From positions 1-18,515 of the forward strand of contig BNWD01000010.1 of NCBI GenBank assembly GCA_025998575.1: a DNA stretch of 18,515 nt, read 5' to 3'. Below, piece after piece: positions 7,189 to 9,532 of the stretch (position 1 is the first letter of the stretch; every line of letters begins with the position of its first letter). Source of the DNA: Alphaproteobacteria bacterium (GTDB taxonomy: Bacteria > Pseudomonadota > Alphaproteobacteria > RUG11792). Below the pieces are notes generated by a model. It was not told the DNA's origin, did no database searches, and was given only the letters and a program-made list of their open reading frames with translations. The position numbers were made by a program, and so were the translations under genes.

Positions 7189-7197
7189 GTTCACCAC

Positions 7198-7565
7198 CTC
7201 TTTCTTTTAGCCAACAAATTCCAATTTTTACAAATATTTGACGTTAAACCTGCATTACGTTTTTAAAGTTCATCAACGAAAAACACCAAAACTCTCGCAT
7301 TTAATTTTGATAACTAGCATTATATCTCCAGAAATTCTTAACTGAGCTTCTCATATTCTACACTTTTTTATACTTTTGTATACCAAAAATCTCTCCAGAA
7401 CAATCACTTTGACGCATATTTTTTGAATTTTCTATTAAATTCAGCGTTATTATAATTCACTTCCTTGGCATTTTCCATGCACCCTTAAAAACATCTTAAA
7501 TAAGTGACTTCCGATATTCTCTAACGTAGTTACGGTTCTGCGACATTAAACGCGTTGCGGATTGA
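7198..7565. other. AT-rich rpoC upstream region with no gene seen
   Basis: On the minus strand this is the potential rpoC leader. I see no coding frame here. Apart from the candidate -10 at 7319-7324 there is a second TATAAT on the minus strand near 7450, again without a convincing -35. Confidence 0.4.
7319..7324 (-). promoter_or_regulatory. possible -10 box upstream of rpoC
   Basis: The minus strand has a perfect TATAAT about 130 bases before the rpoC start. The hexamer 17 bases upstream (GCTCAG) does not resemble a -35 box, and there is no TGn extension. It is only the most plausible local candidate for separate rpoC transcription in a long AT-rich leader. Confidence 0.22.
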
Positions 7566-8376
7566 AAGGCTTATTTCAATGGAATTTTTGAGTCTTTCTC
7601 TTCACTGGGCCTTCTTAAAATTGTTGGTAAAAAGCAATTAGCATATCTGAAGATAAGTGAGCTACTTGTTGCATTGCGCGCATTACAGACTCTTATTTCA
7701 ATTGTTCTTCTCGAACAACGAGTTGACGAGAATTGGAATATTATAAATAGCCTTGCGAATGGCGATGAACAGTGTTTAGCGCTTATGAATGTGTTTGTAT
7801 GCTATGGCAACGCTTGGTGGAATGATAAAGACACAGGATGCAGTATAAACTAATTACTCCACAGTCTGAAAAATCTGTAAATTTTCGTGTGGACGATGCA
7901 AGTAGTAAGGAATTAATGGATTAATATGACAATTATTATCTGAAATTCCAAAATGAATTAGTAGCAGATCATAAATTTGGAATTGATCTTTTCAATTTGT
8001 TAAAAGATGTCAAGTTTTGTTATATGGTCTTGTAACTATGGTGTTTTTCGAATTTATGACAAAAATGCTAACGATTTCTGAAGCTCCTGAGAGATTACAA
8101 TATTTTTCCAATTCTTTTGGAGACTCAACTGTCGAAAAACATGCTCATCCGCTTATGTTCATTACTGCTTTTGTTGCATATCTTATTGCAACTTGCAAAC
8201 TTGATTTACGTAAATGCTTTAGTAACAAAACTATAACTTTACCTGCTATTAAGTCAGCAAATAGATTGAGCATAACTGTGGTAATTTGCGACTCACAATT
8301 AGATAAATTCGACAAGACATTACTTCATGAATTAACCAAAGAAGAGGAAAATAAGATAATTGCGAAAATATATTAA
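7566..8376 (+). pseudogene. decayed paralogue of the secreted protein family
   Basis: A once-continuous gene is now in three frames. One frame runs to about 7852 and includes NIINSLANGDEQCLALMN. The next, from 7829, reads MQYKLITPQSEKSVNF, has a TAA near 7922, and continues to about 8035. The last, from 8017, runs to TAA at 8374-8376. That last part has AYLIATCKLDLRKCFSN and ends HELTKEEENKIIAKIY. These line up with ALLILNGTIDVREHFPN and the ending PITPEERATAKAIVFHQ in the intact secreted protein at 921-2078. No signal peptide or good start is visible, so the 5' end is also lost. It lies inside the rpoB-rpoC interval and on the opposite strand to both. Confidence 0.65.
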
Positions 8377-8390
8377 ATTCTCATTGTTTT

Positions 8391-8422
8391 ACAAAAACCT
8401 GTTTTCAAAACTGGCTTTTTGT
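8391..8422 (+). terminator. rho-independent terminator-like hairpin after the pseudogene
   Basis: Fourteen bases after the pseudogene stop, a near-palindrome pairs ACAAAAACC with GGCTTTTTGT and CTGTTTT with AAAACTG. The 3' arm ends in a T-run. It looks like a retained terminator of the dead gene. Because of its A- and T-runs it could work in both directions and so hinder rpoB-to-rpoC read-through on the minus strand. Confidence 0.55.
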
Positions 8423-8782
8423 ACTTGCCTTAACTATATTTATAGCTTGATATAAAATGTCTGATTTCAAACAGAAGAATAATATTTGCCTATAATTTAA
8501 TTAGTATTAATAATTTTTATTTTAGCCACCGAAAGCAATTCAATAACATAGAAGCTTACAGTGTAGGTTAGGTCAGAAAGTAGCAAGCATTATTTTGAAG
8601 TATGGACAAAAGCCAGGCTAATATCTTTCAAAGTGAATTCCAATTCTGTATTTGTTCAAGCGGATTAATAAGTCATGGCTTCAGAAGCAACTAGTTAGCA
8701 TTCTTTATCATAACGTTTCTCTAGCTCTCTTTGTTTTGTAATGATAATATGAATTCGTTAAATATTTTAGAAGTTGTTATTT
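8423..8782. other. non-coding stretch, no feature recognised
   Basis: I see no open frame or RNA gene here. Weak resemblance to the extreme 3' end of rpoB may continue left of 8783 (around 8715-8782), but it is too diverged to claim. Confidence 0.35.
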
Positions 8783-8871
8783 ACTCATAGACTTTTGTAC
8801 TGCCTTCTACATCGTCTGATTTGATCGTCAACATTTCACGCAAAATGTGCGCCGCGTTATACTCCTGAAGA
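8783..8871 (-). pseudogene. duplicated rpoB 3' fragment, distal arm
   Basis: This 89-base block aligns without gaps to 9658-9746 inside rpoB, with 9 mismatches by my count (about 90% identity). It corresponds to the rpoB codons for [20 protein letters not shown] and the next few residues. It is the far arm of a partial tandem copy of the rpoB 3' end and is split from the other arm (about 9350-9525) by unrelated sequence. Confidence 0.88.
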
Positions 8872-9350
8872 TCTCATATGTGTGTACACTTTTGGCATGT
8901 CGAATCAAAACCTGTGCTACACATGAGCCGTTCGCGTTTGTTCAACTTCCTAACCAGCAAGATGTGTACCATTTTAAACCGATTGCTGTTTCCAAACCTG
9001 TAATATCGTTACCTGCATCTGGTGGAATAGGACTTATGATATTTAAGCGAGTTGAATTGGCTTAATGAGTCCAATACAAATTGAGCTCATAGAGAGATTA
9101 TCCCTACATTATATTTTGGCAAGTGTTTATAAGAACAAATAGAACGTGGTGCGGCTGATTTTGACGGTTTTGTCAATGCGTTTCACTTTCACTTCGATCT
9201 TTCTGACATTGGCTGTTTACGTAGTCTAATGCGTTACGATTCTCACTCTTGTTGTATGATGAGACATTTTGCTTATTGTTGCTCGGAACTTTATAAAAAG
9301 TTAAGAAGTGATAGTCCAATCGAGTTACGTGATGAATTGAGGTTGTATCC
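8872..9350 (+). pseudogene. gene fragments inserted in the duplicated rpoB end
   Basis: This block interrupts the rpoB copy and carries plus-strand coding-like pieces in three frames. One ends near 9065 and includes FKPIAVSKPVISLPASGG. A second, at about 9059-9141, includes MSPIQIELIERLSLHYIL. A third, from about 9134, includes [20 protein letters not shown] and [18 protein letters not shown]. The last resembles YCKRMNASFYKALCKDK followed by RELLLDVSPEF in the secreted protein at 921-2078, so it may be another decayed family member; that link is weaker than for 7566-8376. The right border with the rpoB copy is uncertain, between about 9340 and 9384. Confidence 0.45.
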
Positions 9351-9525
9351 CACAATTGCTGCTGCGCTAAATAATAAGGATATACGCCAACGGATCGCGC
9401 ATGGATCTTATCGTCAACGAGATGATGAAGTTTCAGAATATATTTATAGCCAACAGTCACTTTTCGATCAAAAGGCAACATGGAAGGATGCAAGCAGCAA
9501 CTCCTTCCATATAAAATCATCATGA
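9351..9525 (-). pseudogene. duplicated rpoB 3' fragment, proximal arm
   Basis: The minus strand reads [20 protein letters not shown] and continues through [10 protein letters not shown], identical to RpoB over about 30 residues. A diverged tail, [11 protein letters not shown], stands against rpoB YSLITQQPLGG. At the near end [12 protein letters not shown] replaces LYDGRTG. The source is 9828-9930 or slightly more. It begins only eight bases past the true rpoB stop, so the arrangement is a direct tandem partial duplication. It is not an independent gene. Confidence 0.88.
9480..9510 (-). other. strong hairpin just downstream of rpoB
   Basis: A perfect 9-bp stem, ATGGAAGGA (9480-9488) with TCCTTCCAT (9502-9510), encloses a 13-base loop and lies 22 bases beyond the rpoB stop. 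The tract after it on the minus strand is GTTGCCTTTTG, only weakly U-rich. It might stabilise the rpoB 3' end, act as a partial terminator or be an RNase III target. The stem arose inside the duplicated rpoB segment. Confidence 0.4.
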
Positions 9526-9532
9526 CTATTAT

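Follow-up and report, generated by a model that had tools for sequence, protein, structure and literature searches.

The tight order of rpoB and rpoC is usually attributed to a balanced supply of the β and β' subunits of RNA polymerase. In cyanobacteria and plastids, rpo genes are split or rearranged, and in Wolbachia and Helicobacter they are fused. Fused rpoBC genes resemble the locus analyzed here in that they also depart from the arrangement of two adjacent genes, but they do so by fusion, whereas here the genes are separated. In the accessible part of one survey, rplKAJL-rpoBC was the most conserved gene block (PMC4481853). The same genes are present here in the same order and on the same strand, but rpoB and rpoC are 2335 bp apart, compared to roughly 0.3 kb for the widest gap measured among relatives. 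According to the available portion of another report, working genes were inserted into the secE-rpoBC-str cluster, namely nrdHEF between rplL and rsmC and tusDCB between rpoBC and str (PMC8046335). As far as that portion goes, DNA was likewise inserted into this conserved cluster in our case, but the insertions described there are working genes elsewhere in the cluster, whereas here decayed DNA lies between rpoB and rpoC. The genome of Orientia tsutsugamushi is, in the part of the description available, also an alphaproteobacterial genome with much repetitive and degraded DNA, but its repeats go back to a conjugative element with some 40 genes, whereas no such element was identified among the features examined here (PMC10732058). 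We found no report of rpoB and rpoC being split by decayed DNA, including in the accessible part of PMC8321222; subscription literature was mostly outside the search and the absence of such reports is therefore unproven. It is probable that the locus is a genuine case, and a rare one, of a conserved operon broken up in a genome undergoing erosion.

The window, by which we mean the entire stretch of DNA analyzed, is a complete contig of 18,515 bases (C10) and belongs to a metagenome-assembled genome that is 63.5% complete and totals 855,653 bases on 171 contigs. On its minus strand, secE, nusG and the genes for ribosomal proteins L11, L1, L10 and L7/L12 (13777-16828) are followed by rpoB in the usual order. 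Both rpoB (9533-13702, minus strand, 1389 amino acids) and rpoC (3040-7197, minus strand, 1385 amino acids from the first GTG at 7197) have full-length open frames and the Pfam domains expected of them, and the description of both genes as intact in the first-pass annotation was thus correct. The region around the translation start of rpoC (7186-7206, minus strand), read directly, contains a Shine-Dalgarno-like GAGGTG and three GTG codons; judged by eye from the relatives, translation may in fact begin at the GTG at 7194 or at that at 7188 instead of 7197, and the gap edge at 7189 proposed earlier agrees with the third of these. The best relative of rpoB is found in genome G024 (77% identity over residues 1-1387), with 78% identity over nearly the full length for rpoC, and the nearest rpoB sequences among the matches listed come from metagenomes, under the labels Holosporales, Alphaproteobacteria or 'uncultured proteobacterium'. 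The next gene after rpoC is ruvX (2363-2842, minus strand). The rpoC-ruvX gap (2843-3039, minus strand) contains a partial tandem duplicate of 81 bp of the ruvX 5' end (2870-2950 versus 2775-2855, 78%), and sequence from the 3' half of ruvX is repeated on other contigs (C9 18413-18585, C4 15642-15693 and C22 1-110), in two cases at a contig end.

The spacer (7198-9532) is 2335 bp long and contains no recognisable working gene, in line with the separation by 2.3 kb noted at first. Comparison with related genomes, which had been suggested as a check, sets the locus apart: the distance between the aligned edges of rpoB and rpoC had a median of 60.5 bp and a maximum of 298 bp in the 32 of 34 family genomes measured (G030 with the genes on two contigs and G033 with no rpoB match were left out, and the rpoC match in G011 is a 33-residue piece). 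Elsewhere in the class, the largest distance was 249 bp (51 of 61 genomes measured; ten were left out because one match was missing or the genes were on cut contigs). Eighty named loci (L006-L085), which were kept out of at least 111 matches and partly overlap with the family and class genomes, had estimated gaps between -13 and 287 bp in 74 cases, while five had no rpoC and one was fused (L084). The gap of about 290 bp in L010/G001 was not unusual in structure (z -0.97) and contained no copy of rpoB, the best match being 11 bp. With its 2335 bp, the locus does not conform to an ordinary rpoBC operon, in which the genes are adjacent within a few hundred bp, but has the traits of an interrupted operon: the two genes are adjacent in relatives, the flanking neighbours are retained and the insert is missing at the same place in all 32 family genomes. 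As separate observations, rpoB and rpoC form a single fused frame in L084, a Gammaproteobacteria metagenome contig, and in G051, a 0.6-Mb genome of the class, and rpoB is present as two overlapping pieces in different frames in L018 (7986-8019) and in G005:C114 (7989-8019), pointing to a frameshift or a sequencing error.

The wide gap is exceptional also within the genome itself. We defined tight pairs as same-strand genes within 60 bp in G008 and looked them up by best hit, not reciprocally, in samples of 645 kb of the present genome and 688 kb of G008. Both genes were found for 77 pairs, 25 of them on different contigs and 52 on one contig and strand. Among these 52, rpoB-rpoC was the widest; 49 pairs were spaced by at most 61 bp and the exceptions by 189, 1390 and 2320 bp, the last being rpoB-rpoC as measured in this lookup. 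Since most other tight pairs have stayed tight, general erosion does not account for rpoB-rpoC having been hit.

The G+C content of the spacer (0.338) is similar to the mean of the sampled intergenic DNA of the same genome (0.317). Two parts of the spacer match the 3' part of rpoB in the same orientation as the gene: fragment A (8783-8876, minus strand) corresponds to rpoB nt 3952-4045 with 88% identity over 94 nt (90% over 89), and fragment B (9374-9477, minus strand) to nt 3782-3887 with 95% identity and one gap (97% over 98 nt at 9380-9477; longest exact repeat 87 bp). The difference in divergence between A and B was not significant (p = 0.17). Matches to the 3' part of rpoB, announced in the first-pass annotation as a copy of the rpoB end, therefore exist, but as two separate fragments of about 100 bp and not as a single copy. 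The idea that the two derive from a single tandem copy of the rpoB end that has since decayed was discarded, as similarity beyond 8783 was at the level of shuffled sequence (120 of 300 shuffles as good). Opposite-strand pseudogenes had been proposed as well, and this holds for a decayed piece on the plus strand (9043-9405), which contains two stops and aligns at 45% identity with residues 49-170 of a 1671-residue open reading frame (ORF) on contig C5; the DNA identity is 72% over 9049-9368, and the end of the piece overlaps fragment B in the protein alignment. The ORF of 119 amino acids at 8017-8376 (plus strand) matched itself alone in the homologue search, has no Pfam domain and is probably a relic or spurious. 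For the remainder of the spacer, one weak match of 20 residues was the sole relative in the 645 kb sampled of this genome. When 20 family relatives were searched with the spacer and eight candidates were scored per genome, 16 matched only in the two rpoB-tail parts and four did not match. Rfam searches at gathering thresholds yielded one tRNA in the window and nothing in the spacer.

About 20 nt after the rpoB stop lies a strong hairpin (9480-9510, minus strand) with -18.7 kcal/mol in 66 nt, which was equalled or surpassed by 3 of 200 shuffles and ranks third among 155 gene-end entries, of which at least one is listed twice and one stronger entry is tRNA-like. Shuffle test and ranking thus confirm the hairpin as previously called, but it is not followed by a run of T residues and lacks this half of an intrinsic terminator. 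The inverted repeat at 8391-8422, which had been considered terminator-like, is weak and A+T-rich; 9 of 200 shuffles were as good on the plus strand and 27 of 200 on the minus strand, and a scan of both strands of 7190-9535 found no terminator site where 1.1 were expected, so that this designation was not upheld.

A second rpoB tail is present on contig C19, which fits the genome by its tetranucleotide profile and has nearly identical stretches in common with C10 and C39. It comprises 197 bp corresponding to rpoB nt 3974-4170 including the stop, with 82% DNA and 91% protein identity to the resident rpoB. Third codon positions account for 28 of the 35 differences, and the changed codons comprise 27 silent and 6 non-silent ones. 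A simple model, in which a dead copy changes at all positions and the gene at about three quarters of its third positions, predicts a third-position share of about 0.467 (p = 5.7e-5), and the excess indicates that the two tails diverged for the most part while both belonged to working rpoB genes. The C19 tail would then have come from another lineage, or else the resident tail has been replaced. The C19 stop is also followed by a hairpin (matched in stability by 4 of 200 shuffles) that differs in sequence from the one after the resident rpoB, and then by a convergent ORF (7586-8560) and not by rpoC. Taken at face value, the comparison suggests that rpoB had lost its neighbour rpoC before the two tails diverged and that the split may predate the strain, an argument drawn from one 197-bp fragment whose downstream neighbours may not have come along.

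We consider it likely that a real insertion separates rpoB from rpoC and that translation of rpoC is uncoupled, the question of its promoter being graded separately below. By this account, the insertion would be specific to the lineage and would have interrupted the order rpoB-rpoC-ruvX in an alphaproteobacterium of Holosporales-like type, in which short dispersed fragments abound in the sampled intergenic DNA. A fragment of a lineage-specific protein gene, by eye of a secreted type, would have piled up between the genes together with fragments of the rpoB 3' part and unassigned filler, while rpoB retained its full frame and its stop with the hairpin behind it, and β' would be translated without coupling to the translation of rpoB. 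In the relatives, ruvX lies directly after rpoC in L009, L011, L015, L018 and L051, i.e. in five of the 11 distinct relatives whose sequence extends 1.3 kb or more beyond rpoC. It is 2.7 kb away from rpoC in L022 and was not found within the 3.4-3.9 kb after rpoC in L007, L008, L012/G009, L014 and L016 (L191 is the same sequence as L012 and was counted once); in G008, a different gene follows rpoC. Because ruvX is absent or distant in six relatives, rpoC-ruvX is not established as the ancestral order. No second genome of the same genus was present among the 96 searched, and support for the insertion comes from one metagenome assembly.

A misassembly, in which short rpoB repeats and strain variation caused an unrelated stretch of 2.3 kb to be placed between genes that are really adjacent, appears improbable to us. 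The assembly is a metagenome draft, the 87 bases of fragment B identical to rpoB are a potential site of such an error, one contig end coincides with a repeat (18383-18515 of the window equals C19:8927-9059 at 98.5%), and no independent contig carrying the spacer was among the matches listed, which counts against a real insertion. However, the order of genes on both flanks is known from relatives, and a single wrong junction would disrupt the order on one side, so that the assembler would have to have made two that compensate each other. In addition, the spacer fits the intergenic DNA of the genome in its G+C content, the plus-strand protein piece has its match on C5 of the same genome and no related piece was among the matches listed in the 20 family relatives (eight candidates scored in each), and C19 carries another rpoB tail with other DNA after it. 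The presence of rpoB-tail copies downstream of the intact gene could alternatively be the trace of an integrative element that inserted with the 3' end of rpoB serving as its attachment site, restored the gene and left tail copies behind, and a parallel is seen on contig C21, where an FtsW/RodA-family gene and a 940-residue ORF are followed by a 98-bp copy of the 3' end of the gene with 98% identity. We regard this as very unlikely here, since fragments A and B both stem from within rpoB and neither is its end, they differ from each other and lie inside the spacer instead of forming matched direct repeats at both edges, and no recombinase or integrase was recognised by Pfam searches of three spacer ORFs, a homologue search with one of them and comparison of shorter pieces with this genome.

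If the insertion is real, rpoC may still be transcribed from a promoter upstream of rpoB, with the spacer being tolerated ballast. Such read-through is a serious contender, to which we assign somewhat less than an even chance. It would agree with the lack of intrinsic-terminator-like sites on either strand of the spacer and with the missing T-run after the rpoB hairpin. The 200 bp upstream of rpoC also have a low promoter score (10.0, exceeding 13 of 64 presumed heads of transcription units), although consensus promoter scores separate such heads from controls weakly (means 10.5 versus 9.7). Promoter-like matches in the spacer were at chance level (13 found, 9.6 ± 3.2 expected) and the top score was 11.5 in windows beginning at 7283-7433. 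Long untranslated RNA, such as 2.3 kb, is normally a target of Rho. Rho and NusG are both encoded in the genome, which makes read-through through the untranslated spacer less likely. A further argument against it comes from the translation signals: in 18 of 28 relatives, GAG or GGAG directly follows the rpoB stop, 16 times as TAGGAGT, in which the Shine-Dalgarno sequence of rpoC overlaps the stop of rpoB, whereas the stop here is TAA with no adjoining Shine-Dalgarno sequence and GAGGTG is located at the start of rpoC itself. The start signals of rpoC are thus not near the rpoB stop as in the family, and translational coupling has probably been lost. Given Rho and NusG, a promoter of rpoC within the spacer would be slightly likelier than 2.3 kb of untranslated read-through, but both the leaky long transcript and the new promoter put forward in the first-pass annotation are fair options between which the sequence does not decide. 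Production of rpoB and rpoC is probably no longer coupled as in the relatives. The wider proposal that rpoB has its own 3' end and rpoC is a separate transcription unit in the genus, with β and β' made independently and this being tolerated through at least one split, is doubtful. If intact rpoB and rpoC are truly separated, their linkage can be lost and the locus is a place to test its purpose; if β and β' are truly made from independent units, it would be a natural test of whether co-transcription of rpoBC matters.

Repeats are frequent elsewhere in the genome. In the first 554 kb sampled, matches to other places cover 16% of all and 37% of intergenic bases, compared to 3% and 13% in G008 (336 kb) and 5% and 13% in G009 (169 kb), with the caveat that the samples are unequal in size and larger samples find more repeats. 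Intergenic copies of gene parts numbered 37 in 214 kb here (leaving out eight repeat-like ORFs of this genome, G000), against 8 for G008 (55 kb) and 4 for G009 (59 kb), which gives no clear excess of gene fragments per intergenic kb over the relatives. An apparent bias of the copied fragments towards 3' gene ends was dropped, as 5'-end and internal copies also occurred in the larger sample. Intergenic islands, among others on C1, C4, C7, C14, C18, C19 and C21, are often mosaics of dispersed repeats of tens to several hundred bp, and Rfam searches of seven other stretches yielded tRNAs and RNase P but no further family. The arrangement on C21 (8115-12242), in which the 940-residue ORF has no Pfam domain and the 98-bp copy has its own stop, has the appearance of an insertion bordered by a duplicated gene end. 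Very large ORFs are located on C5 (18775-23790, 1671 amino acids), C16 (13-3954) and C39 (1320-5834). The protein from C5 has no Pfam domain, matched only itself among the matches listed (residues 1-800 scored) and has, by eye, a start resembling a signal peptide. The ORF at 921-2078 of the window likewise had itself as sole homologue. Its start and upstream region are spanned by the window copy (1988-2195) of a block of about 200 bp that recurs at C19 8530-8737, C9 18056-18267, C33 7281-7479 and C45 1638-1840, with 84-91% identity to the C19 copy, and that is perhaps a common module of promoter and signal peptide.
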